Shown here piece by piece: positions 6,565 to 48,700 of a DNA stretch of 64,000 nt. The stretch is from Chondrosia reniformis (lineage: Eukaryota; Porifera; Demospongiae; Chondrillida; Chondrillidae). Under the pieces are notes generated by a model. That model ran no database searches and was not told the origin of the DNA. It saw only the letters and a program-made list of their open reading frames with translations. The stretch lies in NCBI GenBank assembly GCA_947172415.1, contig OX359190.1, positions 2,604,001 to 2,668,000 of the forward strand, in the 5' to 3' direction. Within the stretch, counting starts at the first letter, position 1. Every line of letters starts with the position of its first letter. The translations under genes were made by a program, and so were the position numbers.

Positions 6565-9500
6565 TTAAAGGGGGAAATCCTCTTTCAGTTTCTTAAGAAT
6601 CTTTTCATGAATCGGATAGTCATCTGATGTCTGCTGGAGAACTTTACCAAACAGATACAAGCTCTCCACTGTACCAGTGGTCAACAGGTGGAGAAGGAAG
6701 ATACTGTTTGCCTCCTTTGTTTTCTTTGCCTTCCCAATCTCCTGATACACCTCGAGAGTGATTAGTGGCTTTTTATCCACTCCCTCGAAGAGGTGATTCA
6801 CTATCTTGTCAACACAGAGGTTGCCCAACAGGTAGAGCCAGTGTTTTGATTGTATCGTTTCTTTCCAATTGTCTGGAACACCTATACAAAACACATGCAA
6901 TAACATGAACAATCATTACACCTTCATGATGTAGTAAACTGAACACAAATTCAAATGTTTCTAGTATACATTACACTGTATATGGTTTATACAGTGAATA
7001 TGCACTCACTCTGCTTCCTGGTGCCTCCAGTAGCAACTTTACATTCTCCAGAAAAGGACTCTTTATAGAGAAGGAACTGGTCTCCATCAAATTCAAGATC
7101 ATCAGTCATGACAAGCTATGTATATGGAATACAAAATATCAATACAATTGTCATGCATAAAATTGACTAACCCAAAATGTGCCAGTCATATATAGTAATT
7201 CTATAATAAAGTTTGAGAAATTGTATATCATCAGCCTTGTAAAGTTACCAAAAATTTCCAATTCGTTTAGCATTGAAAGTATGAGAAAGACAAAAACTGA
7301 AATGTCAATTTTGAATAAGTTCCAGAACACCTGGAATACACCTCATACACCTCTGTGTACTGTATAGTGCTGTTCAGTAAATACAATTGCACTGCGTGTA
7401 GCATACAAAACTTACAGAACTGGTGTCGTTGATACATTCTTTAGTAACCCAAATCGACTCTCTTGGAGTTAGTGGCTTTATTTCATCCAGCCTGGTACAA
7501 ACACCTGTCACCTGACTATCGGCTTCAAAACGCAAAAGATGCAAACTGGGCTTAATGCAATTTTTAAGACAGCAAACGACTCCATCTTCTAAAGTGGCTT
7601 TCTCTTCAAGAAACTCTGCACCGAACACCGCTTTGCTCACATGACAAATGCGCTCGTACATCTCCCTTCTGATGTGCTTGCAGAGCTCAGTCAAGGACAG
7701 ACTTAGCTTGGGAAAGTGCTGAGGAACCAACAGTTGGAGTTGAATGAGGTCTTCCTTTTGGGAAAGGATAATGTGAGCACTCTCTTGAGAGAAAATGAAC
7801 TGTGTGGTGTCTGATTTACTGGGACAGTACCTCCACTGCTTTCCTCTCAGCTGGATTGGGCTCACTACCTCCTCCTTGAGTGCTTGTCTGCCACTTGCAA
7901 TATCTACAGCCAGTCTGTGGAATAGACCAGTTGGTATGCAGGTATACCTCTGATCTTGGACGGAATGGAATGAGAAAGTGTATGCCAAAGTAGCCACAGA
8001 TGCTTCAGGCAGGTGGATCTGCCTCTCGGGAAGGGCTGCTGGAATGAAGTAGCGTGTCTCCTTCTCTCTCACTTTGGCTGCAATACCAATTTTTACCAGG
8101 ACCTCCAGGAGCCATCTTGTTGGGATGTCAGCATTGATATCTAGCTGTCGAAACAAGGCCTCTGAAACAGCTTCAGGAATTACTCCTTTTTCCATGAAGA
8201 TACGTAGCTCTGGGCTTGGACATTCACTTGGGCCATACTGGACTGATAGCACTTTGGACATTTCCTTGTACAGAAAGGTTGCATCTGTACAGATCCACTG
8301 CTCTTTGTACTCACTCAGGTCAAAGTACAAATAGAACCCAAGGCAATGAAACAGGTTCAGCAGTGCAAGTAGCTGTCTGTCAGGATCTACTGGTTGAATA
8401 AATTGGCATCGGAGGCAAAACTCTTTCAGTTCTGTCAGCTTCCACATCTTCTTTTCCACACTAGATGTGATTAGTTGCAGGCAGAACCAAACTTTGGGGA
8501 CTTTCAATGCTAACCGATTATTGGAATCTGCAAGCTGAGAGCGAAGGGCATTAACTACTTTGCAAGTGTGATCCTTCATCATGCTGTCTCCCTGTAGTTG
8601 ACTGTCTAATAGAAAGTAGCTACCAGCACCTTTGTATGCAACCTCTTTTGGGGGGAAAACCCTATTGCCATCATAAGGCTTGTTGTCCATTTCCTCTAGA
8701 ACCTTCTTGTTGTGGTCCAGTAGAGCTCTCTTAGTTTCAGGATCTTCAGGAAGATGGGAAAGGTGAGTGCCAACAAGGAAAATGCGAAGTTGAGGCTCAT
8801 TAGGCATGTCAAATGCTTTCAACTGCCGCTTGCTCTTCATTGACATTGTGTAGGCAGCTGTAATGGACTCCTTCATCAATTCCCAGGTTGAACAGCTGTT
8901 GGCTCTCTTCTCTTCGGTGGCTCCATCTCGACAGAAAGCATTGATATACGGATCTGTCAACCTCTCTGAAGCTTTAAAGACATGCAGAAAGTTGCAGGGA
9001 AAGTCCAGTAGGAGTGGAACGACATTCTGAAAGGAGGGCTGGCCTCCTGTGTCAAGGAGGTAAATGAATGTACACTTCTTTTCATCAAACTCTGCTTCAG
9101 TGGAGAGATTGTGTTGGCGCAGGAAGCTGTCCCTGGCTTGCTCTAGCAGCTCCAGTGGGTCTTGTACTGCTAAAGCCTCAGTGGTATCATCTCTATGGCT
9201 AGGAGGAGGAGGGGAATTGGAGACAGCGGTTGGCAGCTTGGTCGTCTCACTGGCTACCTCTGTTGTCTTGGTGATATCACCAGGTAAAGTGGCATCATTA
9301 GATGAAGCCTGTGGAAGAGAGGCAGGTGGGGCTTCTAGAGTACTGCCTGGAAAGACCTTCCTTTTCTCCATCTTAACCTTTGAAATAAGCTGCCCTAGCT
9401 TTTCATCTGTTAAAACTTTCCAGGAAGGACCAACTGCCAGACATTTAACGAAATCATACTTCTCTTCCTCTCCCTGACTCCCCTCTCCCTGATCCTCTAT

Positions 9501-12500
9501 TCTCAGGTTCTCTTCTTTCTGGTATTCCTCCAACCGATCTGTTCTTCCCTTTGTGTCTCCATCCTCAGCAATGGTGGCCACTTCAGGAGCTTCCAGCACT
9601 CCAGTGCTAGTTTTGTCTTCTCTTGGTGTGTCGTGGAGCAGGTAGTGCTTCAGTGAGGTTTTACCAACTCGAGGGCCTCCTGTCAGGAAACAGTAAAAGA
9701 TGTTAACCTCAACGGAGCCATGCCCTTCTATGGCTTCTTCATACCACTGGGGTTCCTAGATCGCACAACAACAAATCATGTAATAAACAGAAGTAAACTA
9801 TTATTACATATTTTATATTAACATAGTTACAACAATTGTCTTTATTCAATGATTACAGTTCTCAAGTCTATATACATAGGTTCAATTATGCTAGTTATAT
9901 AAAAGTGTGCAGTTTTTAAAGGTTCAATGAAGCGGATATTAGGATTTGAATAATGATCAACGTTGGGGTCAAAAATATTTCATTTGCTCTCAAAAGGAGT
10001 ACATGAATAAACACTTAATAAACATACGTAAAAAACTATAAACAATTGTAGGTTAAAGAATTGCCATCTACGTAGACTAACTTCAGTTGTTGGTTGAGTT
10101 TGGGTGATCATGAAGTAGAGGATGTACACTATAATTTAGAATGAGATTGACTAGTCTAATGTACAGGCTACACAGACATTACAACATTTAGAACTATTTT
10201 ACAGTTCCTAAAATCTACCCTCCTACCCTAACCAAGATGAGATATGGCAGAGGACCATACAGACTGTCCACTGTCGTTAGATCAATTCACTTGTGTGTGG
10301 GTCTTGGTATGAGGCTAATTGCATTGTGTGTTGCTTACACCAAATCAGTTCGAGTAATATATTAATGTATCTTCTAATACGTACACTGCTGGGAAGATGT
10401 CCAAATATAGAAACTAAAAGCAGTTTAGTATAAGGTACAGAGCTGACCCAAGTTGAATAACTTATTCTAAATAAACGTTATAATCCTAAGTAACAGTTGT
10501 CAATTGTTCCAAAACATGCTGCACATGGCCCAGTGGAGAAGAAGAGAAGGAGAAACTCTGTATCCTAATCCGAAACACTCGCTATGCTTAGTTCCCTATA
10601 GGCCTTCACTCTAAAGTAGATGTAGCATGTACTGAGAGAAATGGTGTGATAGATTATTCCTACATATGTACATAATCTTATGCACAGTGCAAGTTGTGTT
10701 TATAAACAAAGAATTAAAAGGTCAGTAATTATCAAATCACTTAACCCATTAACGACTGCTCACCCCTTTTCGGACCAGTAGTGCATGGTGAAGGACGGCG
10801 ACAATTTAAAATGGCCGAATTTATATATATTTTATACTATTCGATAGCGCATGTTGTAGGCAATACGAATATTGTGTTTGTACACAGTTTACTGCGTGTA
10901 TTAGACATAAAAGTTAAGTATAAAGTAAGAATAATTATGCAATCGTTTACATTAAAACGCACGTGGGCGTCCTATGTAAACAATGTTCACGGCGATGGAA
11001 GAAGCCTTTATTCGTCAGCATTTGCCTTTCTTCTCTTGGTTGTCAGTTGCTCTAGCGTATGATAAAGCTTAAAACACGGATTAGGAGGCGGACAAAGGGG
11101 TATTGGGTCTGAAGGCGAACATTGACTGCAGCAAAAGTAAGTTCTTCTACGTTGGAGACAAATACGGCAATGCCCTCTCCTATTTTGTCTCTCCTGGAAG
11201 TGCCGCTCAGTCAAACGTGTCACTGAGGCAGGATCATGGAAGCAGGGTTGTCTTTTGCGGGAGTTATGGCTGGCAATTAGTTGGCTGGCAATCTGTAGTG
11301 TAAATTCCTTCTGGGTAAACTGCTTAGTGGCTGTCTCCTTGTATATAACGTAGGCATTGACTACTGCCAGGTCTAGCAAAAAGTAAAAAATCCTCAGCCA
11401 CCATTTCTTGGATTTTTTACTACAAGAGTAGGTCTTGCGCCTAAAATCGAAAAGATCAACCCCACCCATATAAGTGTTATATAATTTAATGCTTTCGGGG
11501 CAAGGAACCTGCTGCCTAGTGCCATCCTTTGCTGTCCTCATTACATGGGTGGTGTTATGGGGATGAACTAATGTGTTTATGATGGCAACTGGTTTTTTGT
11601 CTATCCAAACCAGGCACTCAGTTTTGCCATCATTAACAAGTATGGATTTGTGTCCCCCCCTTGGCAGTGTCTTTCCGAGGGTCTTCAAATCGCGTAGAGC
11701 CTCAGGAAATCCCCTCCGGTTTACACGAGCAGTTCCAATAAGGTATGTCTGCTTCTGGTGGAGGGAACAGGCTAGAGAAGGACTGGTGAAAAAGTTGTCC
11801 GTATAAATATGGTGACTTCTGCCTTGGATGGAATGGCAGAGCATCTGAACAACTTTTTCACCTAGTCCACTCTCTGGGGAGCCACCCATTGCACCTAGGT
11901 ATACCTCAAAATCATAGGCATACCCATTTCTGGAATCACACATACACCACACCTTGTATCCTCGCTTTACGGGTTTCAGTGGCATGTACTGTTTAATGCT
12001 GGAACGGCCCTTAAACAGTACCATAGCTTCATCGACAGCCAGTTCCTGGTGTGGGTAGTATGCTTTTTGGCTGCATTCTTTCAGTTTGTTGAATAAGGGT
12101 CTCACCTTATAGAGTTTGTCAAAATTGGGTTGGCCTGGTGAGGGCATTTTGGTATTATCGTTCAGGTGGAGGAATCGGAGTATGCTCTTAAAGCGGTCCC
12201 TAGACATGCCCCTTGTGATCCCAGGAGCACCAAGAAGGGGATCCATACTCCAATAATCATTTATTGCAGGCAGCCTATGAATTCCCATGGCTATTAGGAT
12301 CCCAATGAACGATTTCATCTCTGGTACCGTAACATTTTCCCACGTAGGGCCAGGATGGCTTTGTTGGCTGTAGAGGTTTGTTTGATCGGTGATCAGCTGG
12401 AATGTGGCTGCATCAAATATTGCCTCAAAGACAGAGAGAGGGCTACAGCTTTCATCAAGGTTCAAAAGAGACCCTGACTTCATTGTAAATGGTGGATGGT

Positions 12501-15500: not shown

Positions 15501-17570
15501 CAGCAATTTACTCAAATTGTTGTTACTTAGTTAGCAGTTTATTAATTGTGTCTATTCATTATGCGCTCCTGCAACATCTTATAACTAATCACACGAACGT
15601 ACACAGGACGAGAAATTAATATTCTGCAAATTACATGCAAGAAACCGTTTTACAATTTGGCACTTTTATAAAACGTACACACTCTACTTTCTCCTTCAAA
15701 TACAAAGAGCGGATGATACAAGAAGACTTCTAACAGTCCCCGTTAGTGGAAACAAGTTAACACTTAAACTCGTGAGAGCGTTCGTAGGAAACACTCGTAC
15801 GAGAACTTTACACGCGCTACGTGTACACTGAGCGCACAAGTTAGGTGACTCTAACGAAGGAAATAAAACCTTTTAATGTTTCTATTTGTAGGAGAAAGTG
15901 CACGCGAAGCGCGCAACGAATGTTAACAAGACTTGTAATACTTTAATGTAATGTTTTGTAATTAAATAAGTTACTAACCTCAACTGCAATATCGTACTGT
16001 ACAGCTCTTGTCTCATATTCTCCTCCATATAATCCTCCTCCAATGGTGAGAAAAGTAGTTCCGTTGAGGGAAGCCGTACAATTGTAGTGATAAGACGTTT
16101 CTTTACTAATTTTTGTCCACTTCTTCTTCTCGAAAATGAAGATTGCATCTGGACCCACTAAGACTGGTAGGGTGCTGTATTGTAAAAGTGAACTGTTCCT
16201 TGGTGCATTCTCGAGCCTTTCCCAGTGATGTACTTCATTATTGGTAAGTGAAGCCATAAAATTCTTCTTATTCATTCTCCGAAAATATCCATTCCAGTTG
16301 TAGATGTAAATGTATTCACCACACAATGCCATGTGGTGATGTGATAATGGTAGAGGAAGTTTCAGATTCGACTGGATCCACTTTCTATTCTTAATATCCA
16401 GGAATTCAATTGTGTCTTTTCCTGCTCCTGCTCCTCCAGACACAATTACTAAGTCTCCAATAGCAAGAACACCTGGATGGTATCGGGCAGTGTGCATTGG
16501 AGGATATAGCTCTAACCATTCTTCACCTGTCCATGTCACTGGCTTGCTTGTACGAGTGCGATGAGTGTCTCTACCTCCTATCAGAGTTAACTGATCTTTT
16601 ATGATGGTGGCTCCACTGAAAGAATATGGAGATGGAGGTAGTGTTGACCATTTCTTCTTTAGTACATTGTATACCTGAATGATCCGTTCAGATGCCTTAT
16701 TTCCACATTTTCCCCCGTAGACAAATACTGTTTCGTTAATTACAACTGCCTTCCCAAATCGAGTTCCAATCGTCGCTACCGGTATTTCAGTTGATTTCAG
16801 GAAGTGACCTCCTCCAGCTGTCAAGAGGTCACTTTGAAATACCTAATTAGAGACAAGAAAGAAAAGATAATATTCACTGTTTGGAGGAACTGAATGACAT
16901 GGAAGGAGCAAGTTCTGTAGCAGCTTATTGCAAGAACACTTTGAGGCCTGTAAGTGCCGTAAATGTTCTTGTCTAAATATTCTTAACGTGCATGCATGGC
17001 TCATAGTTTAATAATGCTCATATTTTAAACTTTATAACGTTTACAGTGACAAGCTAATTGCCACCAGTAGAGTAACAGAATGGTTATTCAGTTACGGAAA
17101 GATTACGAATCAGTTCCTCGCTTTCTAACTTGTCCCCTAAAAGGATATGAATCACGTGTGTCTCTTCGCTCTATAGTTGACTGGTTTGGTTTAGGTTTTA
17201 CACGGACCCAACAACTGTAATTGAAGTACTCGAGCCAGCCAAGTATTCCTTTCTAGACAAACCCAATCGAACGGAAACTAGTCTCTGAATGTATGCCAAT
17301 TAGTCCCGACAGGTTCACTTAAAATATCTATTCTACTTTACTTCTGGCTAATTACTTAAGCTTGTTAGCCACAGAGCCAGTTACTTACAATATCTACATT
17401 ATAAACATCTGTAGCTAATTACCTGCTTAAGTTTGGCTATTATCTCAAACCAAGCGAGTTTTAATTTTGGCACTGAATTCGGACCAGTAATAGTTAATAT
17501 AACGCTCCCATAAACTGCTTTAGTTAACAAGAGACCTATTAAGTAAACTTACGTTCTCCACGTTCATCAT
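6565..17570 (-). CDS. Kelch-Roc(GTPase)-COR-CARD protein, copy 1
   Basis: Five exons splice in frame to 1,214 aa: 17553-17570, 15979-16842, 7416-9755, 7010-7115 and 6565-6881. Residues 7-294 form a Kelch-type propeller (GG doublets at 49, 95, 142 and 274; Trp at 71, 115, 161, 213 and 248). P-loop GGPRVGKTS is at about 320-328, G3 motif DTGGQ at 529-533, and VGTHLS at about 622 stands for G4 but lacks the usual Asp. COR-like sequence covers about 705-915, and a CARD-like helical domain about 1110-1214. A low-complexity insert separates P-loop and G3. Exon phases agree at every junction. The start is the ATGATG in exon 1; upstream in-frame sequence is hydrophobic without ATG, so the N-terminus could be longer. 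A piggyBac interrupts the 6.2-kb intron. Sensor-GTPase-CARD order suggests an immune or death-pathway receptor (inference). Confidence 0.75.
9756..10740. other. Intron sequence, copy 1, left of piggyBac
   Basis: This is the long Kelch-GTPase intron. No exon, ORF or RNA is recognised. It matches unit 2 (28842-29828) closely. Unit 3 has replaced much of it with Helitron-bearing DNA. Confidence 0.6.
10741..13380. mobile_element. piggyBac transposon with TTAA target duplication
   Basis: TTAA lies at 10741-10744 and 13377-13380. Terminal inverted repeats begin CCCATTAACGACTGC on the left and CCTTTTAACGACTGC on the right (reverse complement). Unit 2 has the empty site with a single TTAA near 29829. 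The element is 2,632 bp, inserted in the Kelch-GTPase intron after the units separated, and carries one open transposase. Confidence 0.93.
11008..12843 (-). CDS. piggyBac transposase
   Basis: This uninterrupted 611-aa protein has an acidic Ser/Pro-rich N-terminus (about 1-125). The DDE_Tnp_1_7 core follows, with catalytic Asp candidates in AVDEAM, YTDNFFTS and GGVDLFD. The C-terminus is Cys-rich (HCRICLQ...CCSQC...), matching the zinc finger that binds DNA near the transposon ends. Family transposases excise and insert at TTAA without footprints. Length equals that of full piggyBac proteins and there is no frameshift, so the copy may be functional. ATG at 12841-12843 is the natural start; about 530 bp separate it from the right end. 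The gene is antisense-independent of its host: it lies on the same strand as the host Kelch gene, within its intron. Confidence 0.95.
   Translation of the reverse strand: MAKRMNTSFIIRKVNETADSDDSDWALSEDDLWESAEVGEIDTNIGPVISRDHLEEAQEVVHEDEEVVEPQSPPPSNPFPVRASTPEQPCSLPSIQDISAIPTPIPSTSSQGSFDHPPFTMKSGSLLNLDESCSPLSVFEAIFDAATFQLITDQTNLYSQQSHPGPTWENVTVPEMKSFIGILIAMGIHRLPAINDYWSMDPLLGAPGITRGMSRDRFKSILRFLHLNDNTKMPSPGQPNFDKLYKVRPLFNKLKECSQKAYYPHQELAVDEAMVLFKGRSSIKQYMPLKPVKRGYKVWCMCDSRNGYAYDFEVYLGAMGGSPESGLGEKVVQMLCHSIQGRSHHIYTDNFFTSPSLACSLHQKQTYLIGTARVNRRGFPEALRDLKTLGKTLPRGGHKSILVNDGKTECLVWIDKKPVAIINTLVHPHNTTHVMRTAKDGTRQQVPCPESIKLYNTYMGGVDLFDFRRKTYSCSKKSKKWWLRIFYFLLDLAVVNAYVIYKETATKQFTQKEFTLQIASQLIASHNSRKRQPCFHDPASVTRLTERHFQERQNRRGHCRICLQRRRTYFCCSQCSPSDPIPLCPPPNPCFKLYHTLEQLTTKRRKANADE
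13381..14504. other. Intron sequence, copy 1, right of piggyBac
   Basis: No exon or RNA is recognised. The short ORF at 13725-13949 is AT-rich and not preserved between units. Sequence is near-identical to about 29830-30950 of unit 2. Confidence 0.5.
14505..15945. repeat. Diverged direct repeats in the Kelch-GTPase intron, copy 1
   Basis: Two blocks (about 14505-14845 and 15588-15945) share the same order of motifs: ACACAGGACGAGAA, GTTAGTGGAAACAAGT, ATAAAACCTTYTAATG (variant in block 1) and CGCGAAGCGCGCAACGAA followed by TGTTAACA. A partial third copy is at 15236-15320. The second block ends about 35 bp from the Kelch exon donor. Confidence 0.6.
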
Positions 17571-20329: not shown

Positions 20330-24617
<4,288 letters not shown>

Positions 24618-25652: not shown

Positions 25653-28600
25653 TTAAAGGGGGAAATCCTCTTTCAGTTTCTCAAAGATCTCTTTATGAGT
25701 CGGATAATCATGTGATGTCTGCTGGAGTACTTTACTAAACAGACACAAGCTCTCCGCTGTACCAGTGGTCAACAGGTGGAGAAGGAAGATACTGTTTGCC
25801 TCCTTTGTTGTCTTTGCCTTCCCAATCTCCTGATACACCTTGAGAGTGATTAGTGGCTTTTTATCCACTCCCTCGAAGAGGTGATCCACTATCTTGTCAA
25901 CACAGAGGTTGCCCAACAGGTAGAGCCAGTGTTTTGATTGTATCATTTCTTTCCAATTGTCTGGAACATCTACACAACACATGCAATAACATGAACAATC
26001 ATTACACCTTCATGATGTAGTAAACTGAACACAAATTCAAATGTTTCTAGTATACATTACACTGTATATTATATACACAGTGAATATGCACTAACTCTGC
26101 TTCCTGGTGCCTCCAGTAGCAACTTTACATTCTCCAGAAAAGGACTCTTTATAGAGAAGGAACTGGTCTCCATCAAATTCAAGATCATCAGTCATGACAA
26201 GCTATGTACATGGAATACAAAATATCAATACAATTGTCATGCATAAAATTGACTAACCCAAAATGTGCCAGTCATATATAGTAATTCTATAATAAAGTTT
26301 GAGAAATTGTATATCATCAGCCTTGTAAAATTACCAAAAATTTCCAATTCATTTAGCATTGAAAGTATGAGAAAGACAAAAAACTGAAATGTCAATTTTG
26401 AATAAGTTCCAGAACACCTGGAATACACCTCATACACCTCTGTGTACTGTATAGTGCTGCTCAGTAAATACAATTGCACTGCATGCAGCATACAAACTTA
26501 CAGAACTGGTGTCGTTGATACATTCTTTAGTAACCCAAATCGACTCTCTTGGAGTTAGTGGCTTTATTTCATCCAGCCTGGTACAAACACCTGTCAACTG
26601 ACTATCGGCTTCAAAACGCAAAAGATGCAAACTGGGCTTAATGCAATTTTTAAGACAGCAAACGACTCCATCTTCTAAAGTGGCTTTCTCTTCAAGAAAC
26701 TCTGCACCGAACACCGCTTTGCTCACATGACAAATGCGCTCGTACATCTCCCTTCTGATGTGCTTGCAGAGCTCAGTCAAGGACAGACTTAGCTTGGGAA
26801 AGTGCTGAGGAACCAACAGTTGGAGTTGAATGAGGTCTTCCTTTTGGGAAAGGATAATGTGAGCACTCTCTTGAGAGAAAATGAACTGTGTGGTGTCTGA
26901 TTTACTGGGACAGTACCTCCACTGCTTTCCTCTCAGCTGGATTGGGCTCACTACCTCCTCCTTGAGTGCTTGTCTGCCACTTGCAATATCTACAGCCAGT
27001 CTGTGGAATAGACCAGTTGGTATGCAGGTATACCTCTGATCTTGGACAGAATGGAATGAGAAAGTGTATGCCAAAGTAGCCACAGATGCTTCAGGCAGGT
27101 GGATCTGCCTCTCAGGAAGGGCTGCTGGAATGAAGTAGCGTGTCTCCTTCTCTCTCACTTTGGCTGCAATACCAATTTTTACCAGGACCTCCAGGAGCCA
27201 TCTTGTTGGGATGTCAGCATTGATATCTAGCTGTCGAAACAAGGCCTCTGAAACAGCTTCAGGAATTACTCCTTTTTCCATGAAGATACGTAGCTCTGGG
27301 CTTGGACATTCACTTGGGCCATACTGGACTGATAGCACTTTGGACATTTCCTTGTACAGAAAGGTTGCATCTGTACAGATCCACTGCTCTTTGTACTCAC
27401 TCAGGTCAAAGTACAAATAGAACCCAAGGCAATGAAACAGGTTCAGCAGTGCAAGTAGCTGTCTGTCAGGATCTACTGGTTGAATAAATTGGCATCGGAG
27501 GCAGAACTCTTTCAATTCTGTCAGCTTCCACATCTTCTTTTCCACACTAGATGTGATTAGTTGCAGGCAGAACCAAACTTTGGGGACTTTCAATGCTAAC
27601 CGATTATTGGAATCTGCAAGCTGAGAGCGAAGGGCATTAACTACTTTGCAAGTGTGATCCTTCATCATGCTGTCTCCCTGTAGTTGACTGTCTAATAGAA
27701 AGTAGCTACCAGCACCTTTGTATGCAACCTCTTTTGGGGGGAAAACCCTACTGCCATCATAAGGCTTGTTGTCCATTTCCTCTAGAACCTTCTTGTTGTG
27801 GTCCAGTAGAGCTCTCTTAGTTTCAGGATCTTCAGGAAGATGGGAAAGGTGAGTGCCAACAAGGAAAATGCGAAGTTGAGGCTCATTAGGCATGTCAAAT
27901 GCTTTCAACTGCCGCTTGCTCTTCATTGACATTGTGTAGGCAGCTGTAATGGACTCCTTCATCAATTCCCAGGTTGAACGGCTGTTGGCTCTCATCTCTT
28001 CAGTAGCTCCATCTCGACAGAAAGCATTGATATACGGATCTGTCAACCTCTCTGAAGCTTTAAAGACATGCAGAAAGTTGCAGGGAAAGTCCAGTAGGAG
28101 TGGAACGACATTCTGAAAGGAGGGCTGGCCTCCTGTGTCAAGGAGGTAAATGAATGTACATTTCTTTTCATCAAACTCTGCTTCAGTGGAGAGATTGTGT
28201 TTCAGCAGGAAGCTGTCCCTGGCTTGCTCTAGCAGCTCCAGTGGGTCTTGTACTGCTAAAGCCTCAGTGGTATCATCTCTATGGCTAGGAGGAGGAGGGG
28301 AATTGGAGACAGCGGTTGGCAGCATGGTCGTCTTACTGGCTACCTCTGTTGTCTTGGTGATATCACCAGGTAAAGTGGCATCATTAGATGAAGCCTGTGG
28401 AAGAGAGGCAGGTGGGGCTTCTAGAGTACTGCCTGGAAAGACCTTCCTTTTCTCCATCTTAACCTTTGAAATAAGCTGCCCTAGCTTTTCATCTGTTAAA
28501 ACTTTCCAGGAAGGACCAACTGCCAAACATTTAACGAAATCATACTTCTCTTCCTCTCCCTGACTCCCCTTTCCCTGATCCTCTATTCTCAGGTTCTCTT

Positions 28601-31600
28601 CTTTCTGGTATTCCTCCAACCGATCTGTTCTTCCCTTTGTGTCTCCATCCTCAGCAATGGTGGCCACTTCAGGAGCTTCCAGCACTCCAGTGCTAGTTTT
28701 GTCTTCTCTTGGTGTGTCGTGGAGCAGGTAGTGCTTCAGTGAGGTTTTACCAACTCGAGGGCCTCCTGTCAGGAAACAGTAAAAGATGTTAACCTCAACG
28801 GAGCCATGCCCTTCTATGGCTTCTTCATACCACTGGGGTTCCTAGATCGCACAAAAACAAATCATGTAATAAACAGAAGTAAACTATTATTACATATTTT
28901 ATATTAACATAGTTACAACAATTGTCTTAACTCAATGATTACAGTTCTCAAGTCTATATACATAGGTTCAATTATGCTAGTTATATAAAAGTGTGCAGTT
29001 TTTAAAGGTTCAATGAAGCGGATATTAGGATTTGATCAATGATCAACGTTGGGGTCAAAAGTATTTCATTTGCTCTCAAAAGGAGTACATGAATGCCTAC
29101 TTAATAAACATACGTAAAAAACTATAAACAATTGTAGGTTAAAGAATTGCCATCTACGTAGACTAACTTCAGTTGTTGGTTGAGTTTGGGTGATCATGAA
29201 GTAGAGGATGTACACTATAATTTAGAATGAGATTGACTAGTCTAATGTACAGGCTACACAGACATTACAACATTTAGAACTATTTTACAGTTCCAACAAT
29301 CTACCCTCCTACCCTAACCAAGATGAGATATGGCAGAGGACCATACAGACTGTCCACTGTCGTTAGATCAATTCACTTGTGTGTGGGTCTTGGTATGAGG
29401 CTAATTGCATTGTGTGTTGCTTACACCAAATCAGTTCGAGTAATATATTAATGTATCTTCTAATACGTACACTGCTGGGAAGATGTCCAAATATAGAAAC
29501 TAAAAGCAGTTTAGTATAAGGTACAGAGCTGACCCAAGTTGAATAACTTATTCTAAATAAACGTTATAATCCTAAGTAACAGTTGTCAATTGTTCCAAAA
29601 CATGCTGCACATGGCCCAGTGGAGAAGAAGAGGAGAAACTCTGTGTCCTAATCCAAAACACTTGCTATGCTTAGTTCCCTATAGGCCTTCACTCTAAAGT
29701 AGATGTAGCATGTACTGAGAGAAATGGTGTGATAGATTATTCCTACATATGTACATAATCTTATGCACAGTGCAAGTTGTGTTTATAAACAAACAAAGAA
29801 TTAAAAGGTCAGTAAGTATCAAATCATTTAAAGTTGTGTTTATAAACAAACAAAGAATTAAAAGGTCACTAATTATCAAACTGCTAATGGATTATGACTT
29901 TGGAATATTTGGTTCAATCACTTTTAGAAGTAATAATATTCAAATAATATTCACTTGCAAATACCATACATTTTATAGCAAATAAATTGATTTCTTCCCT
30001 TATACGTACATTATAAGTGACGCATTCACACATTTATGATAAACAGTAGCTTTACAAGAATGTTGGGGAACATTAGGTAACCATTAATCACAACTCAGTC
30101 AATCCCACAAGTGTATGCATAAGGATTTTTCAGTAGTGTTTAAATGAGGAAAATTTGATAGCCTGCATAAGTTAAATCATTGTGGCCTTTGAAGGCTGTG
30201 CTAGCACAATGGCATCTTAGTTGTGGGTACGTGGTCTACTTTTCTAAGACCTTTTACACGTTACTCCCTACACAATGCACATGCTATGTAGCAATCACAG
30301 TGTATACGTACATATCAGGTAATATATACATAAGTACATGTTAGGCCATACGTAGGTACATATACAAATGATGATTCAGCAACTATAAATCAATGTATCC
30401 TTTGATTTTTGAGTGTCTATAGAAACAGTTTTAGTAACACTCTGAGCTTTGAATCAACCAGATCAATTCACATGTGAGTAGGTGTTGGTAGGAGGCTAAT
30501 TGCATTGTGTGTTTATGGACCTCAAAAGAGGTTGAATAATTTACGTATCACCAAAATTCTCAAAATATTTATATGTAGACGGCCATTTTTCTAACACACT
30601 GCTTGGAAGATGTCCATAGCAACTAAAAGCTATCTAGTATAAGGAAACTCTTTGAATCTATGTACGTATACATATATACGTAATATGTACGTATACAGAC
30701 ATACACACTCAAACAATGTAGTATATATATCATTCTCAAATGATAAGCTACATTCTTGATGATAATGTTACTGTACCTTTATGCATTTACTTGAACAAGG
30801 AACACCAGATTTAAAAACACGATACCTCTCTCAGTCGAATGATCTGCCTAGTACTATGACAACATATTCACTGCTAAATGGCTGTCAGCATAAAGACTCA
30901 ATTGGTAGCAATTTACCCTTTCTGCTGTTGGCAAGTGGCTCAATCTATAACTAATCACTCGTACGTACACAGGACGAGAAAACATTCAAGTTGAAACATA
31001 CGTACGTACGTAGGTCTACATACACGCGACAATAAACACTCTAAGTAATCAGACAATGAAGCCAACAATTCTAGCGGATAATACTTTGAATGCTTTACTT
31101 TCTCACTTCAAAGAAAACTTAACAGTCTTCGTTAGTGGAAACACTTAAACAAGTACGTATCAGCGCTCATAGGACACACTCGTATGAGAACATTAATCTA
31201 AAGCAATACAAGTCTTGTTAATATTAACATTGGAAATATGGGAAATAAAACCTTCTACTGTTTCTATTTTAAAGTGTACGCGAAGCGCGCAACAACTGTT
31301 AACATAACTTGTACTGTAATTAGCTACTAGCCTACATTAATTGCTTCCTATAAAGATTGCCTAAATAGAAGAACCATACGTATCTATATTAGAACACACG
31401 AAGTGAATAATTGTTATCACTATAAATCTCAGACATCAGTACTTCACATAAACTTAACACAAGGAGCTTTTAGAGAACAGAAACTAGACACTTCTAGTTC
31501 GGCAAAGTCTATGTTCGGTGAAGTTAGAGCAGTCGATATACTTAAAGTGCTTTCCCTCTTATTAACATTCACTGACAAATCTATTTGACTTTATTTATCT

Positions 31601-33871
31601 CTCTTACACTTACTTCAACAAGGTAAACCTGATTAATGAGCTTAGTAGTTCCCAAGATCAACGAATGGTTTAAGTAATCATCATAAACTTAGTAACTTTA
31701 AAAACTTAGTAATCATAAGATCTAGACGTTGACGACTATTTTTCACTGGTAAAATGGCCGACTTTTGGCTACCAAATAAAACTTCGTAGCAATTTACTCA
31801 AATTGTTTAGCAGTTTATTAATTGTGTTTATTCATTATGCGCTCCTGCAACATCTTATAACTAATCACACGAACGTACACAGGAGGAGCAATTAATATTC
31901 TGCAAATTACACGCAAAAAAAACGTTTTACAACTTGGCACTTTTATAAAACGTACACACTCTACTTTCTCCTTCAAATGCAAAGAGAGGATGATACAAGA
32001 AGACTTCTAACAGTCCCCGTTAGTGGAAACAAGTTAACACTTAAACTCGTGAAAACGTTCGTAGGACACACTCGTACGAGAACTTAAAGCAATACAAGTC
32101 TTGTTAGCATTGACACACGCTTCGTGTACACTGAGCGCACAAGTTAGGTGACTCTAACGAAGGAAATAAAACCTTCTAATGTTTCTATTTGAAGGAGAAA
32201 GTGCACACGAAGCGTGCAACGAATGTTAACAAGACTTGTAATACTTTAATGTAATGTTTTGTAATTAAATAAGTTACTAACCTCAACTGCAATATCGTAC
32301 TGCACAGCTCTTGTCTCATATTCTCCTCCAGATTCTCCTCCAATGGTGAGAAAAGTAGTTCCGTTGAGGGAAGCCGTACAGGTGTTGTCATTAGACGTTT
32401 CTTTACTAATTTGTGTCCACTTCTTCTTCTCGAAAATAAAGATTCCTCTTGGACCTACTAGGACTGGTAGGGTGCTGTATTGTAAAAGTGAACTCCTCAA
32501 TGGTGCATTCTCGAGCTGTTTCCAGTGATGTACTTCATTATTGGTAAGTGAAGCCATAAAATTCTTTTTATTCATTCTCCAAAAATATCCATAAAACCAG
32601 TAGTAGATGTAAATGTATTCACCACACAATGCCATGTGGTGATCTGATAATGGTCGAGGAAGTTTCAGATTCGACTGGATCCACTTTCTATTCTTAATAT
32701 CCAGGAATTCAATTGTGTCTTTTCCTGCTCCTTCTCCTCCAGACACAATTACTAAGTCTCCAATAGCAAGAACACCTGGCCAGTATCGGGCAGTGTGCAT
32801 TGGAGGATATAGCTCTAACCATTCTTCACCTGTCCATGTCACTAGCTTGTTTGTAGGAGTGCCATGAGTGTCTCCACCTCCTATCAGAGTTAACTGATCT
32901 TTTATGATGGTGGCTCCACTGTAAGAACACGGAGATGGAGGTAGTGTTGACCATTTCTTCGTTAGTACATTGTATACCTGAACGATCCGTTCAGATGCTT
33001 CATTTTTACAGATAAATACTCTTTCGTTAATTGTAACTGCTTTTCCGAATTCAGTTCCAATAGCTGCTTCCGGTATTTCAGTTGATTTAAGGAAGTGACC
33101 TCCTCCAGCTGTCAAGAGGTCACTTTGAAATACCTAATTAGAGACAAGAAAGAACAGATAATATTCACTGTTTGGAGGAACTGAATGACCAAGTTCTGTA
33201 GCAGCTTATTGCAAGAACACTTTGAGGTCTGTAAGTGCCGTAAATCTTCTTCTCTAAATATTCTTAACGTGCATGCATGGCTCATAGTTTAATAATGCTC
33301 ATATTTTAAACATTATAACGTTTACAGTGACAAGCTAATTGCCACCAGTAGAGTAACAGAATGGTTATTCAGTTACGGAAAGATTACGAATCAGTTCCTC
33401 GCTTTCTAACTTGTCCCCTAAAAGGATATGAATCGCGTATGTCTCTTCGCTCTATAGTTGACTGGTTTGGTTTAGGTTTTACACGGACCCAACAACTGTA
33501 ATTGAAGTACACGAGCCAGCCAAGTATTCCTTTCTAGACAAACCCAATCGAACGGAAACTAGTCTCTGAATGTATGCCAATTAGTCCCGACAGGTTCACT
33601 TAAAATATCTATTCTACCATTAGTTCTAATTACTTATTCTACTTTACTTCTGGCTAATTACTTAAGCTTGTTAGCCACAGAGCCAGTTACTTACAATATC
33701 TACATTATAAACATCTGTAGCTAATTACCTGCTTAAGTTTGGCTATTATCTCAAACCAAGCGAGTTTTAATTTTGGCACTGAATTCGGACCAGTAATAGT
33801 TAACGCTCCCATAAACTGCTTTAGTTAACAAGAGACCTATTAAGTAAACTTACGTTCTCCACGTTCATCAT
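25653..33871 (-). CDS. Kelch-Roc(GTPase)-COR-CARD protein, copy 2
   Basis: The exons are 33854-33871, 32282-33133, 26502-28841, 26096-26201 and 25653-25969 (1,210 aa, no internal stop). The 2,340-nt GTPase-COR exon differs from copy 1 at only about nine residues, including ASKTTM for ASETTK and LKHN for RQHN. The Kelch exon differs at about 36 residues plus small indels. The first Kelch GG doublet is lost: VYGGKCGNKA in copy 1 is represented here by ICKNEA. The P-loop GGPRVGKTS, DTGGQ and the CARD-like tail (NVPDNWKEMIQSKHWLYLL) are intact. The long intron has no transposon and shows the piggyBac empty site. Promoter motifs match copy 1. Confidence 0.75.
28842..32281. other. Kelch-GTPase intron, copy 2
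   Basis: It holds no recognised gene. It contains a tandem duplication of about 57 bp (29772-29887) around the piggyBac target site, and the two diverged direct-repeat blocks at about 30953-31325 and 31855-32245. Confidence 0.6.
29772..29887. repeat. Tandem duplication of about 57 bp
   Basis: AAGTTGTGTTTATAAACAAA and the following ATTAAAAGGTCA occur twice. In unit 1 the piggyBac inserted at the TTAA between the two copies. Unit 3 has only one copy. Confidence 0.8.
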
Positions 33872-36637: not shown

Positions 36638-41505
<4,868 letters not shown>

Positions 41506-42728: not shown

Positions 42729-45700
42729 TTAAAGGGGGAAATCCTCTTTCAGTTTCTCAAGAATCTCTTCATGAATCGGATAATCATGTGATGTCTGCTG
42801 GAGTACTTTACCAAACACACACAAGCTCTCCGCTGTACCAGTGGTCAACAGGTGGAGAAGGAAGATACTGTTTGCCTCCTCTGTGTTGTTTGCCTTCCCA
42901 ATCTTTTGATAGACCTGGAAAGTGATTAGTGGCTTTCCATCCACTCCCTGGAAGAGGTGATTCACTATCTTGTCAACAGAGAGGTTGTCCAACAGGTAGA
43001 GCCAATGTTTGGATTGTATCGTTTCTCTCCAATTGTCTGGAACATCTACACAGCACAAAATTACAATAATGATTACACAATCATGAGAGGTAGTCAACTG
43101 AACATAAATTCAAATGCTTCTGGTACACATTTTAGTATATACACAGTGAATATGCACTCACTCTGCTTCCTGGTGCCTCCAGTAGCAACTTTACATTCTC
43201 CAGAAAAGGACTCTTTATAGAGAAGGAACTGGTCTCCATCAAATTCCACTTTACCAGCCACACCCAACTATACAGAAGAAGAAAAAATATTACTTATTGG
43301 ACTAAAAGAATACTAACATTTAATACACTTTAATTAATGTAACATAGTACAGTTATTGTTGTACAGTCTAATTAGCTACTACTACATATACTCTATTTGG
43401 TTTCAATTAATAGTTGCCATATAAACTTACACAACTGGTGTCATTGTCCTGTTCCTTTGCAACCCAAACAGACTCTCTTGGAGTTAGTCTAGTCGGCTTG
43501 TTCAGTCTGGTACACAGACCCTTTCTCCGGTTGACAGCTTCAAATCGCAGAAGATGCAAACTGGAGCCCTCACAATTCTGGTGACTGCAAATGACCCCGT
43601 CCTCTAAAGTGGCTTTCTCTTTGACAAGAAACTCTGCTCCAAATACTACCTCACTCACATAACAAATGCGTTCGTACATCTCCCTTCTGATGTGCCTGCA
43701 GAGCTCAGTCAAGGAGGGCTCTGTGTTAGGAAAGTCCTCAGGAACCAACAGTTGGAGTTGAATGAGGTCTTCCTTTTGGGAAAGAGCAATGTGGGCATCT
43801 TCTTGTGTGAAAATGAACTGTGTACAGCCTGATTGCTTGTGATAGTAATTCCACTGCTTTCCTCTCAGCTGGACTGGGCTCACGTCCTCCTCCTTGAGTG
43901 CTTGTCTTCCACTTGCAATATCCACAGCCAGTCTGTGGAATAGACCAGTCGGTACACAGCTGTACCTGTTCAATTTGTTGGAACCAAATGAGAAAGTGAA
44001 TCCCAAAGTGGCCACAGATGCTTCGGGTAGATCGATCTGCCTTTCAGGAAGAGCTGCTGGAATAAAGTAACATATCTTCTCTGTCATTTTGGCTGCAATA
44101 CCAATTTTTACCAGGACCTCCAGGAGCCATCTTGTTGGGATGTCAGCATTGATATCTAGCTGTTGAAACAAGGGCTCAGAAATAGCTTCAGTAATCACGC
44201 CATTTTCAATGAATCTGCATAGTTGTGGACTTGAAGATTCAATTGGGCCATACTGGACTGATAGCACTTTGGAGATTTCTTTGTACAGAAAGGTTGCATC
44301 TGTACAGATCCACTGCTCTTTGTACTCACTCTCACTCAGGTCAAAGTACAAATAGAACCCAAGGCAATGAAACAGGTTCAGCAGTGTAAGGAATTGTCCG
44401 TCAGCATCTACCGGTTGGATGTATTTGCATCGGAGGCAAAACTTTTTCAGTTCTGTGAACTTCCACATCTTCCTTTTTACACTAGATGTGATTAGTTGCA
44501 GGCAGAACCAAATTTTTGGGACCTTCAGTGTCAATGGGTAGTTGGCGTCTGAAAGTAGAGAACGAAGGACATTTACAGCTTTACGAGTGTGCTCCTGCAG
44601 TTTGCTGTCTCCCTGTAGCTGACTGTCCACTACAAAGTAGCTACCAACACCTTCGTAGACAACTGCTTTTGGGGGGAAAACCCTGTTGCCATCATAAGGC
44701 TTGTTGTCCATTTCCTCTAAAACCTTCTTGTTGTCGTCCAGTAGAGCTTTCTCAGCTTCAGGATCTTCAGGAAGATGGGAAAGATGAGTGCCAACAAGGA
44801 AAATGCGAAGTTGGGGCTCATTAGGCATGTCAAATGCTTTCAACTGCCGCTTGCTCTTCATTGACATTGTGTAGGCAGCTGTAATTGACTCCTTCATCAA
44901 TTCCCAGGTTGAACGGCTGTTGGCTCTCTTCTCTTCAGTGGCTCCATCTCGACAAAAAGCATTGACATACGGATCTTTCAACCTCTCTGAAGCTTTAAAG
45001 ACATGCAGAAAGTTGCAGGGAAAGTCCAGGAGGAGTGGAAGGACATTCTGAAAGGAGGGCTGGCCTCCTGTGTCAAGGAGGTAAATGAATGTACACTTCT
45101 TTTCATCAAATTCTGCTTCAGTGGAGAGATTGTGCTTCAGCAGGAACCTGTCTCTGGCTTGCTCCAACAGCTCTAGTGGGTCTTGCACTGCTAAAGCCTC
45201 AGTGGTAACATGTCTAGGAGGAGAAGGGGAATTGGAGACAGCGGTTGGCAGCTTGGTCGTCTCACTGGCTACATCTGTTGTCGTGGTGATACCATCAGGT
45301 AAAGTGGCATCATTAGATGAAGCCTGTGGAAGAGAGGCAGGTGGGGTTTCTAGAGTGCCGCCTGGAAAGACCTCCCTTTTCTCCATTTTAACCTTTGAAA
45401 TAAGCTGCCCTAGCTTTTCATCTGTTAAAACTTTCCAGGAAGAACCAACTGCCAAACATTTAATGAAATCATACTTCTCTTCCTCTCCCTGGCTCCCCTT
45501 CCCCTGGCCTTCCTCTCCCTGGCTCCCCTTCCCCTGGCCTTCCTCTCCCTGGCTCCCCTTCCCTTGGCCTTCCTCTCCCTGGCTCCCCTTCCCCTGGCCT
45601 TCCTCTCCCTGGCTCCCCTTCCCCTGGCCTTCCTCTCCCTGGCTCCCCTTCCCCTGGCCTTCCTCTCCCTGGCTCCCTTTACCCTGGCCTTCCTCTTCCT

Positions 45701-48700
45701 GGCTCCCATTCCCCTGGCCTTCCACTCCCTGGCTCCCTTTCCCCTGGCTTTCCACTCCCTGGCTCCCCTTCCCCTGGCTTTCCATTCTCTGCTTTTTTTC
45801 TCTCTGGTATTCCTCCAACCGATCTGCTCTTCCTTTTGTGTCTCCATTGTCAGCAATGGTGGCCACTTCAGGAGCTTCAAGCACTCCAGTGCTAGTTTTG
45901 TCTTCTCTTACTGTGTTGTAGAGCAGGTAGTGCTTCAGCGAGGTTTTACCAACACGCGAGCCTCCTGTGAAGACTGCACGACTAATGTTCACTTCAACTG
46001 AACCATGTCCTTTTATGGCTTCTCCATACCACTTTGGTTCCTGCATGGCATACCAAGAAGAGATAGCTATCATAGACAATTGATATAAAGTGTAATATGT
46101 GTTTACAGTGTAATACACATGCACTTATAATAAGCATATTTGAAGTATTCACTATTCTCACCCACTAAGTCATTCTATGAATAAGCAGTTTCAATCATTA
46201 TCCTAATTCACAGGTTCTCGGTTTATTATTCCTCAACCGCCTGCTACAGTTAACATGTGATTAACCAGAAACTACTTGAAAGTCCTTCTAGACAATCTGT
46301 GGAGTGTCCTAAATAGTTTGGTAATTTCTTTATCAGTTCAACCTTATCTGTTATTTGCTGTATTCAAACTGACGCCAGACATTTTTACCGAATTACATGC
46401 ACATGATATTGAACCTACGTACCTACGTTGGAATGACTTTATGAGAAATGTGACTACTTTTAAATGTGCATTATGTTGTAAACTCATGTATACATGGACT
46501 CTTAATCCAACTAAAAGTACGTAGCTTTCAAACGTCATTTTAATGTTTAAACGGACATGGTTATATTTTCACATTTACATGACACGTATACGTAGGTAAC
46601 GTAATAATGACGGCTTGAAAGACGGCATTGCATGCTAAACGCCTACTAGAATACGTTAAGTACAAGCGTATGAAGATATTAGCTCTTTAGCTGACTGAGC
46701 ATACCTCTTTCTAAATATGGAAGGTGATGACCACTAATTGACTGCGGAATTTCTCCAGGAATGTCGAGAACTGCAACAGTAAATCCGTAGAGAGTCCTCA
46801 GACCCTTTTGGAAGCCGTGATTGCACAATGATTTCATCCTTAACAGGTTAACAATAAACAATAGATTACCCACAAAGGGACAATCTGTATTCATAAACAA
46901 ATATTCCTTTGACAATTCAGTCAGTAGGTCAGTAGGTCAACTAACAAGAAGCATCTTTAGAGAACAATCAATTCAGCCAAGTAATACAGTCAATACCCGA
47001 CATCTCTTCTGAGTGACACATTCATTTGACTTCTGTTTATCTTTCACTTACTTTGAACAAGAAAGACTAAAAACGTGGAAACTATAAAATGATGATTATT
47101 GTACATTTGTACATATGAAAATGCGACACCAGCTAATCTCACAAGCATCAGTCTATCTCCACCACAATCCTGGAGATGCCAATCTGACCATTGAAGAATT
47201 GCAAGCCATATGGTTGGCAACCTTAGATCTGAACTTTTTATGAAGCGCATTCAACGATATGCAGCCAAGATACTGGGTTCAAACCAATATTGGTTTCAGC
47301 GTCATCAGGAGCTTTATGACTTACTGGAACAAAAAGGACCACCAACCTTCTTCTGAGCAGTCAGCCTGCAGATATGTAAGGAATAGCCTGAGCTGCACAA
47401 GCTCATGGCACACCCCAGGAACATCAACTACACACCAAATGAGAGTTCAAGCAGTGATTAACAATCCACACATCACAGATTGGTATTTTTCTTGGAAGTT
47501 GTCAGATTGGATTACTCATTGGTTATACAACACACTTGATGTTGACTGGCATTGGTGTTGTTATGAGTATTAGGCCCGTGGCAGCACATGTGCACATGGC
47601 TGTGCAAAGCTGAAAATTGATCCAGTCTTCATCTGCAAGGGTGAGGCACTGGTATATGCCACTGTTCATCAGGAGTGGAGTCATTCATTGTGGTAACTAA
47701 CCAGTCACAGTATTCCAATGCTTGTGCGCCATGGAAGTGAAGGATATCAATGACACTGAAGATCAAGATTACTGTAACACTATCAATACTGTGCAGAGAC
47801 ACACAAGGTGTAGTCCAGCATATTACCTCCACAAAAAGGTTGGTGAGCAGGACCAGCACTGTCGATTTGATTACCCTCGACCTCTCCAACCAACATCTTC
47901 ACTGCAATTTGAGAAACTCAACGAGGTACACTTGGTGTAATTCTGACTACCAAAAGAAATGATCCTCGAATAAACTCACATAACCGGCTAATGATTCAGC
48001 ATTGGCGTGCAAATGTGGACATGCAGATCATTGTTGATGTTGACGCCTGTGTGAGATACATGGCAAAATATGCTGCCAAAGGTGAACCCAGATCAAAAGC
48101 TCTCTCCTCAGTCTTTCAGTCTTGTGTGGGCTGCTTAGCTGTTGACAGTGACACTTGTTTGGGGTTGCGAATGCTATGGTCAGATCAGTTGGTGAAAGGG
48201 ACTTTAGTGCTCCAGAGACAACACACCAGTTTACCTGTGGTAAGCTGTACTTTCAGCTTTGTTACTGTCTGTCTGGATGGTAGTTACAAACTGAGCAAGG
48301 ATAATCTTGGTGAGCATTCCCTTAAAATGTCAATGTTTGACCACTAAGTAACACATTCTTCTCTCCTTGATATGAACCTCATGGAATTTGTATCCAACTA
48401 CAATGTCACCCACTTAATAGGCTGCAATTCGTTTTAGCCAATCTTTGGCCTAATAGCCGTTTGGCCTAATAACCAGTAGCGTCCTTTATTATAAATAAAT
48501 ATGCTTATAAAATACAGTGGTTTGAATAATATAAAAGTTTAACATGTACATAGTCAATATCTCCTAAAATGGTTAAACAAAGTGCTCTGAGTTTGAGTTT
48601 GAGCAGACAGCTTAGTAACCAACGTTTTCGTGAGCATCGATAGCTGTCCAGTCACGCCTCGGCCTGAATTTGGATGCTCCTCTGTTGTTGGCAACAGAGG

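Follow-up and report, generated by a model that had tools for sequence, protein, structure and literature searches.

It is an old question how animals that lack lymphocytes manage to recognise so wide a range of microbes or foreign cells. Sponges harbour dense symbionts, and Chondrosia reniformis itself has dense microbial consortia (PMC12181767). A stretch of 64,000 nucleotides on chromosome 2 of this sponge (C2:2604001-2668000, contig OX359190.1, referred to here as the window) poses the question in a particular form. It carries three Kelch exons (copies 1 to 3), all on the minus strand and at the coordinates given by an earlier note made from the letters alone, in which invariant blocks are broken by residues that differ in all three copies. 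What such a surface may recognise, and how it may signal, is addressed here. We propose, with a probability of roughly 0.75, that the copies belong to a large family of apparently soluble, NLR-like intracellular sensors of non-self, which combine a Kelch propeller with a ROC/COR-like GTPase and a CARD-like end (a DEATH domain in one cluster). Computation provided the copies, the sites under selection with their loop register, the conservation of the back end, the evidence of recombination and the order of the exons.

A search of the whole genome (117,379,552 bases, 15 contigs) with the Kelch exon of copy 1 as query returned 132 matches; because 131 of its 240 candidates were scored, the counts given here are lower bounds. 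Complete or almost complete Kelch exons that share 61% identity or more with copy 1 number at least 98 (one begins at residue 37); chromosome 2 has 94 of them, 91 within 0.77-4.0 Mb, and remoter Kelch families are present on C7 and C14. An inner stop is absent from 88 of the 98 exons and present in 10. Eighty exons were retrieved and 79 aligned, L032 being dropped for its inner stop, while L085-L088 were aligned and excluded from the group tests. The remaining 75 exons were placed in three groups (A, n = 24; B, n = 20; C, n = 31), which represent bands of similarity to copy 1 as opposed to tested clades, and which are not fully independent, conversion between groups being possible and 16 of the 20 group B rows coming from a cluster at 1.87-2.19 Mb. 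Pfam comparisons gave Kelch_1 (expectation value, E, 3.4e-16 in copy 3) and Kelch_6 (E 1.1e-10 in copy 1), and the closest solved structures by sequence were mostly the Kelch domains of KLHL proteins and KEAP1, with KLHL12 the best (E 1.5e-12). The predicted splice sites of the copy 1 exon, an acceptor TAG directly before it and a donor GAG/GTTAGT after it, have identical letters in 20 of 20 copies.

All the residue trios which the earlier note had listed for copies 1/2/3 were recovered in the alignment, namely F/Y/R at residue 75, R/G/K at 91, R/G/Y at 95, YH/YW/SS at 121-122, A/E/V at 138, L/R/Q at 164, H/D/E at 168 and DA/RG/YG at 232-233. In 17 columns each of the window copies has a different residue, and 14 of these columns are among 31 sites that are hypervariable across the family (entropy above 1.5 in at least two groups), an overlap beyond chance. 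The same positions head the variability ranking in groups A, B and C, and the strings of residues which they form along the rim of the propeller are distinct in 74 of the 75 copies. Selection at such positions was measured by a tree-free cross-validation, in which the 24 most replacement-variable sites were picked in two groups and measured in the third (24-site lists were drawn from replacement counts in this tree-free test, or from site posteriors). The ratio of replacement to silent divergence (dN/dS) at the chosen sites was 0.643/0.184 = 3.5 in group A, 0.733/0.366 = 2.0 in group B and 0.626/0.156 = 4.0 in group C, and 0.76, 0.73 and 0.65, respectively, at the sites outside the 24. Over the whole Kelch exon the two divergences are about equal (dN/dS 0.100/0.093 in A, 0.123/0.136 in B and 0.103/0.112 in C). 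Silent divergence as high as replacement divergence had been named in the earlier note as a sign against selection; this equality was found exon-wide, also between copies 1 and 2 (dS 0.085, dN 0.074), and was not found at the rim sites. It does not refute selection, the excess being confined to roughly one codon in ten, and a check at the level of the exon would have been misleading. Variety would be kept up by replacement mutations at some 25-30 rim codons.

The site-wise codon test which had been suggested earlier was carried out on fixed trees and pointed the same way, with counts that are inflated by recombination. Model M8 was better than M7 in every group (by 546, 345 and 584 log units), and 30, 17 and 43 sites in groups A, B and C had a posterior above 0.95 for replacement exceeding silent change. 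Overlaps of these sites between groups were 15 (1.8 expected), 21 (4.5) and 14 (2.5), and 13 sites were common to all groups (91, 95, 122, 138, 142, 168, 183, 215, 216, 252, 253, 270 and 271). By comparison, the GTPase exon of 16 loci had a dN/dS of 0.37 with 0 of 780 codons positive; these are 16 of 20 loci, L014 and L024 being without a long frame and L017 and L019 cut by the 10-kb edge. A more distant family on C14 (L089-L094; 0.8-1.1 Mb), whose six copies are 36-40% identical to copy 1, varies at the same places of the propeller, with 2.45 residues per hypervariable site versus 1.23 at the others (p 1.5e-14).

The six blade registers of the propeller were assigned by inspection, blade IV being without the glycine doublet (GG), blade V carrying GP and one blade having Phe instead of Trp, and loop placement rests on this register and on alignments to KLHL structures. 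The registers GG+1 to GG+8 or Trp+8 to Trp+15 (96 residues) hold 28 of the 31 hypervariable sites (p 4e-12; the exceptions are 209, 212 and 228); in this test the windows were chosen, and the registers of blades IV and V and of the N-terminal loop set by eye, when the sites were already known. When exact GG and Trp residues only were used, with the distances proposed in the earlier note (directly after GG and about 8-13 residues past Trp), 18 of the 31 sites fell in 50 residues where 5.4 were expected (p 5e-8), which supports the placement proposed there. The other counter-sign named in that note, variable sites scattered over buried strands, was judged by sequence register. Peptide contacts of KEAP1 lie at GG+1 (Y334, R380, F478, Y525 and Y572), GG+3, GG+6, W+11 and W+12 (contact list mostly from PMC6891428), and the hypervariable sites, as far as sequence register can place them, cluster at the registers of these ligand contacts. 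The view that diversifying selection acts on one predicted loop face of the Kelch propeller, a recognition surface in the terms of the earlier note, is supported by these results.

The Kelch exon evolves independently of the GTPase exon to which it is presumably spliced, a finding which is new to this analysis. Across the 120 pairs that 16 loci give, silent divergence in the Kelch exon, with the variable sites removed, ranged from 0.026 to 0.121 and GTPase dS from 0.004 to 0.556, with no correlation between them (Mantel r 0.05, p 0.44). Copies 1 and 2, with a Kelch dS of 0.085, have a GTPase dS of 0.018; for copies 1 and 3 the values are 0.082 and 0.260, and the nearest relative by Kelch is also the nearest by GTPase at 1 of the 16 loci. 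Within the Kelch exon, linkage between biallelic sites (squared correlation, r2) was 0.09-0.13 within 15 bp; at greater distance it was 0.04-0.08 in group A and about 0.06 in group B, near the no-linkage expectation of 0.04-0.05 for samples of this size. The fall with distance was weak by permutation (p 0.06, 0.03 and 0.15), and all four combinations occurred in 583 of 990 (A), 1240 of 1830 (B) and 1367 of 3003 (C) site pairs. At the same 16 loci the GTPase exon gave r2 values of 0.35 (up to 15 bp) and 0.14 (300-900 bp) over 146 sites, and the Kelch exon 0.21 and 0.05 over 24 sites. Low linkage within the Kelch exon, together with its evolution apart from the GTPase exon, therefore points to gene conversion among copies, and the simplest reading is that such conversion is frequent and centred on the Kelch exon.

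Low diversity extends a short way beyond the exon: nucleotide diversity (pi) in 20 copies was 0.03-0.06 in the nearest 150-180 bp on each side, and, beyond these shoulders, 0.08-0.10 upstream and 0.12-0.23 downstream. The near-identity of introns reported in the earlier note holds for this nearest 150-180 bp and not farther out. Copies 1 and 2 are 98.6% identical over 3.5 kb that include the GTPase exon and 91.6% identical over 1.9 kb of intron, copies 1 and 3 are about 88% identical, and the GTPase difference between copies 1 and 2, formerly put at about nine of 780 residues, was counted as 14 of 790 aligned residues. The shoulders of copy 1 (about 16843-17020 and 15825-15978) and their equivalents may represent the ends of conversion tracts or splice elements.

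The usual order of the exons is Kelch, a single long ROC/COR-like GTPase exon and a short CARD-like exon, the last of which the earlier note does not mention. A genome search with the GTPase exon gave 56 scored exons among 212 candidates. When every row from the two chromosomes in question is taken, 55 of the 56 are preceded by a Kelch exon no more than 15 kb away on the 5' side, 55 are followed on the 3' side by a CARD-like exon no more than 3 kb away, and 54 have both neighbours, on the same strand. From the other side, a scored GTPase exon lies downstream of 54 of 100 Kelch places and a CARD-like exon downstream of 68. The passage from Kelch to GTPase exon keeps phase 0 by inspection, and the exons are predicted to form one protein. 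The P-loop (GG.RVGKTS) and DTGGQ are invariant in 13 of 13 aligned GTPase exons, in all of which Roc and COR-A matches appear at E values up to 0.1, which are weak. The usual G4 motif of GTPases carries Asp, and none was seen in the GTHLS of this exon. A membrane helix is usually marked by a hydropathy of about 1.6; the highest 19-residue value in the three exons is 1.57, and the known part of the protein thus looks soluble. The earlier term "receptor-like" is apt for the known exons in the sense of a soluble NLR-like protein.

The cluster at C2:1.87-2.19 Mb departs from this order, as none of its 20 Kelch exons has a scored GTPase or CARD-like exon behind it, and 10 of the 20 are followed, 3.7-9.3 kb on, by a DEATH match. 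In the L095 stretch, the only one read in this cluster, a DEATH domain above the cut-off (E 8e-6) lies 5.5 kb past the Kelch exon at 2.0036 Mb, and no GTPase or CARD match was found there. On chromosome 2 as a whole, 26 of 35 DEATH matches come after a Kelch exon, and CARD and DEATH are both present by position at some loci, e.g., near 1.129, 1.311 and 1.343 Mb. The cluster may be read as the same sensor placed on another output. No NACHT match was found in the scanned exons; at least 101 occur in the genome (101 scored of 139 candidates), two of them on chromosome 2 (2.45 and 8.10 Mb) and both outside the Kelch units. On C7, NACHT exons stand in tandem arrays at 0.9-1.36 and 2.15-2.77 Mb, a separate expansion. 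No leucine-rich repeat (LRR) match was found either among the scanned exons, which start at the Kelch exon, and the Kelch exon occupies the place of the LRR. As a first exon, the short upstream frame MSHACTLRIF... was considered and rejected: the adjoining upstream sequence is very similar in 20 loci, but several copies have an interrupted frame or a shift in its 3' part, and it was not accepted as coding.

Several results weigh against the proposed reading. Recombination inflates single-tree tests, as shuffled 300-codon blocks of the GTPase exon yielded 0, 3, 8 and 12 false positives (0 or 1 positives in unshuffled blocks), and shuffling group A cut omega from 1.34 to 0.79, though 33 sites still scored positive; raw site counts and M8 likelihoods consequently overstate certainty, and neither the M8 fits nor a global omega above 1 is used as a measure of magnitude. 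Linkage in group C at distance (r2 0.06-0.10) stays above its background of 0.03, and the GTPase exon recombines too, with four combinations in 57% of pairs, less than the 73% of the Kelch exon. As regards domain assignment, the best E values for Roc and COR are 3.6e-3 and 3.6e-4, the matches fall below the curated cut-off in the three copies for which scores are given, and a sequence search of PDB with the GTPase exon gave no match. CARD matches are likewise weak, being found in 9 of 16 short exons (best E 4.3e-5, the first below the cut-off), and the unrelated SCAPER_N matches the CARD-like exons equally often (9 of 16, best 4e-5); PDB searches with these exons returned weak unrelated matches only (best E 0.33 and 0.042).

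Other explanations of the variable rim start from mutation or from drift. Were the Kelch exon a mutation hotspot, or the substrate of a targeted diversifier (of diversity-generating retroelement (DGR) or deaminase type), with selection playing a minor part, the state of the hypervariable codons would be in keeping, since in group A 2316 of 6184 pairs of such codons are separated by two or three base changes, and since C is the second base of hypervariable codons in 7% of cases versus 24% elsewhere, a bias which selection for polar or aromatic residues would yield likewise. Silent divergence, however, is not raised beside the chosen sites (within two codons 0.069, 0.110 and 0.104 in A, B and C, versus 0.093, 0.128 and 0.111 farther away), and the first position of hypervariable codons shows all four bases. 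Minor synonymous codons are slightly rarer at hypervariable codons (118/1999) than elsewhere (1441/17884), and third-base purine/pyrimidine switches at the hypervariable codons are less frequent in four-fold boxes, in which they leave the residue unchanged (58/700), than in other codons (265/1455; p 4e-10). The unraised silent rate and the scarcity of silent third-base switches argue for selection on residues instead of a local hotspot, which we consider highly unlikely. Relaxed constraint, with redundant copies drifting and their loops unheld, would agree with the exon-wide dN/dS of about 1 and with the inner stops of 10 in 98 copies; drift cannot, however, make replacement outpace silent change two- to fourfold at sites picked from the other groups, or account for variation at those very positions in the 36-40%-identical C14 family, and we regard it as extremely unlikely.

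Two further alternatives concern function. KEAP1 and KLHL proteins have the architecture BTB-BACK-Kelch, and the sponge family shares with them the six-bladed Kelch and the predicted contact registers GG+1, GG+3, GG+6, W+11 and W+12. With KLHL12 and its kin as nearest structures by sequence, the exons could be imagined as ordinary substrate adaptors of ubiquitin ligases in an arms race over substrates. In contrast to such adaptors, no BTB match lies near the Kelch genes: all 68 genome candidates were scored, giving 62 matches, of which two are on chromosome 2 (3.26 and 7.40 Mb), with some 170 kb between the closer of them and the nearest listed Kelch exon, a result that covers recognisable domains and does not exclude a strongly diverged one in the N-terminal exon. 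GTPase and death-fold exons come after the Kelch exon instead, and the adaptor explanation is given next to no credence. The hotspot, relaxed-constraint and adaptor explanations were accordingly rejected on silent rates, cross-validated dN/dS and the BTB survey. The other alternative retains the same machinery with a self ligand, in that the proteins would serve allorecognition (tissue fusion or rejection between sponges), as NWD/HNWD proteins do in Podospora, and not microbe sensing. The closest evolutionary analogue, in its propeller-rim selection and concerted evolution, is an allorecognition family (PMC1805685). A hundred or so mostly open germline copies in a symbiont-dense sponge (PMC12181767), on the other hand, fit a broad repertoire at least as well, and nothing in the present data separates the two; allorecognition is judged somewhat unlikely.

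For the reading as non-self sensors, the following mechanism is proposed. Each copy would be a cytosolic sensor with ligands of its own, bound by the rim of BC and DA loops; the ligands would be non-self, either microbial or allogeneic, and sequence cannot tell which. The GTPase is believed to act as a switch, in the place held by NACHT in NLRs, and the signal would pass through it to the death fold, which may recruit signalling or cell-death partners. By conversion, rim variants would be passed around and recombined and the remainder of the exon made uniform, with selection keeping the rims different. A conserved, putative signalling part joined to a predicted ligand surface under diversifying selection is one mark of a non-self recognition receptor, and this combination is found here, with the surface placed by sequence register.

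Several known systems offer parallels. The NWD/HNWD proteins of Podospora anserina (HET-E, HET-D and HET-R) similarly have a beta-propeller sensor in which a few positions of the interaction surface are under diversifying selection, exchange repeats within and between genes and use an NTPase sensor to trigger cell death (PMC1805685, PMC2873952). They differ in having WD40 and NACHT domains and in exchanging near-identical tandem repeat units, whereas the sponge family has six unlike Kelch blades in one exon, exchange among about 100 genes and a ROC/COR-like switch. The LRR-ROCO candidate immune receptors of brown algae likewise join ROC-COR to a sensor with few selected surface sites and exchange sensor exons; unlike the sponge family, with its one whole-domain Kelch exon and its CARD-like or DEATH end, they have an LRR sensor divided over many exons of 72 bp that are shuffled and alternatively spliced, and the text consulted mentions no death fold (PMC11378527). 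Sponge NLRs (NACHT with LRR, CARD or DEATH) also form large families of presumed intracellular sensors with death folds, but with NACHT and LRR in place of ROC/COR and Kelch, and the main text of a 2026 survey of Dysidea avara NLRs mentions neither Kelch nor Roco (PMC12909245). Among Roco proteins, linkage of Roc-COR to propellers (WD40 or Kelch motifs) or to a death domain (DAPK1) is known singly (PMC6320773). In a sponge transcriptome, Kelch-motif genes, perhaps unrelated to the present family, fall after microbial stimulation (PMC6208332). Among the papers listed in the literature searches, which take in a minority of subscription papers and no bioRxiv preprints, none was seen to describe this family, nor one that joins Kelch to both ROC-COR and CARD, has a rim so variable or runs to about 100 copies. 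The best reading by analogy is that the sponge sensors would work in the manner of NWD/HNWD and LRR-ROCO proteins, but are built from other parts.

It is possible, and put forward as rather doubtful, that the family amounts to a germline combinatorial repertoire, in which the hundred or so Kelch exons would be one recombining pool of rim variants feeding at least three back ends (GTPase-CARD, GTPase-CARD-DEATH and DEATH). The linkage of group C above its background and the recombination of the GTPase exon weaken this idea. Were it true, the animal and its offspring would hold ever-changing combinations of rims without machinery of the V(D)J type.

Table 1. Coordinates of the exons and copy 1 propeller loops in the window (position 1 is its first letter)
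Feature	Positions	Strand	Basis
Copy 1 Kelch exon, 288 codons, six-bladed propeller	15979..16842	-	open frame, Kelch Pfam matches
Copy 2 Kelch exon	32282..33133	-	open frame, Kelch Pfam matches, alignment
Copy 3 Kelch exon	52305..53159	-	open frame, Kelch Pfam matches, alignment
Copy 1 N-terminal DA loop, residues 28-29 (register by eye)	16756..16761	-	alignment, site posteriors, register
Copy 1 blade I BC loop, residues 45-52 (hypervariable 45, 49, 50, 52)	16687..16710	-	alignment, entropy, register
Copy 1 DA loop, residue 75 (F/Y/R)	16618..16620	-	alignment, site posteriors, register
Copy 1 blade II BC loop, residues 91-97	16552..16572	-	alignment, site posteriors, register
Copy 1 DA loop, residues 121-122 (YH/YW/SS)	16477..16482	-	alignment, site posteriors, register
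Copy 1 blade III BC loop, residues 138-142	16417..16431	-	alignment, site posteriors, register
Copy 1 DA loop, residues 164-168	16339..16353	-	alignment, site posteriors, register
Copy 1 blade IV BC loop, residues 182-184 (blade without GG; register by eye)	16291..16299	-	alignment, site posteriors, register
Copy 1 DA loop, residues 215-216	16195..16200	-	alignment, site posteriors, register
Copy 1 blade V BC loop, residue 232 (D/R/Y; GP replaces GG, register by eye)	16147..16149	-	alignment, site posteriors, register
Copy 1 DA loop, residues 252-253	16084..16089	-	alignment, site posteriors, register
Copy 1 blade VI BC loop, residues 270-275	16018..16035	-	alignment, site posteriors, register
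Copy 1 ROC/COR-like GTPase exon (open frame; coding end predicted at GTAAGT donor)	7374..9755	-	frame, Pfam, motifs
Copy 2 ROC/COR-like GTPase exon	26430..28841	-	frame, Pfam, motifs
Copy 3 ROC/COR-like GTPase exon (open frame)	43407..46124	-	frame, Pfam, motifs
Copy 1 CARD-like exon	6568..6888	-	tblastn; Pfam CARD among paralogues
Copy 2 CARD-like exon, ends in stop codon	25653..26009	-	Pfam CARD among paralogues
Copy 3 CARD-like exon	42732..43058	-	tblastn; Pfam CARD among paralogues
CARD-like exon of next gene (Kelch exon outside window)	63461..63769	-	tblastn; Pfam CARD among paralogues
Next gene, second CARD-like exon	62278..62514	-	tblastn

Other elements accompany these exons. The GTPase exon of copy 3 contains 30-bp in-frame repeats (GQGKGSQGEE; 45425-45907, minus strand) which are not repeated in copies 1 and 2 and so indicate a linker whose length varies. 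In copy 1, the intron between the Kelch and GTPase exons contains an open transposase frame of 617 codons (11008-12861, minus strand; DDE_Tnp_1_7, E 1e-88), which we take to be of piggyBac type, and no such frame of at least 150 codons was found in the introns of copies 2 and 3. Plus-strand exons of SelO, a protein AMPylase, at 36638-36850 and 20871-21029 recur in tandem units between C2 2.49 and 2.72 Mb; most units show just two exons, earlier exons occur in some places (the fullest at C2:2492473-2497076), and the repeats reach to 2.718 Mb. They look like a gene fragment hitch-hiking in the tandem duplication. A collagen-like exon at 35414-35722 (plus strand, opposite to the Kelch gene; Pfam Collagen E 8e-10) has similar glycine-rich frames at 19964-20275 and 36258-36569, and long arrays of short tandem units spaced mostly by 8 and 12 bp and reading PSIHPSIHP are present in two units (57405-58309 and 38859-39262).

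A fast-evolving rim joined to a conserved signalling part is the pattern expected of previously unrecognised internal immune or self/non-self sensors. If the proposed reading is true, the candidate intracellular sensors of this sponge would include a second large class, similar in copy number to the NACHT exons found in the genome and built on a type of GTPase best known from LRRK2 and DAPK1. The family would also represent a case of convergent repertoire evolution, a propeller rim under selection being coupled with exchange between copies in the way known from fungi and, where LRRs take the part of the propeller, from brown algae. The rim codons could serve directly as targets in population sequencing and in screens for ligands.

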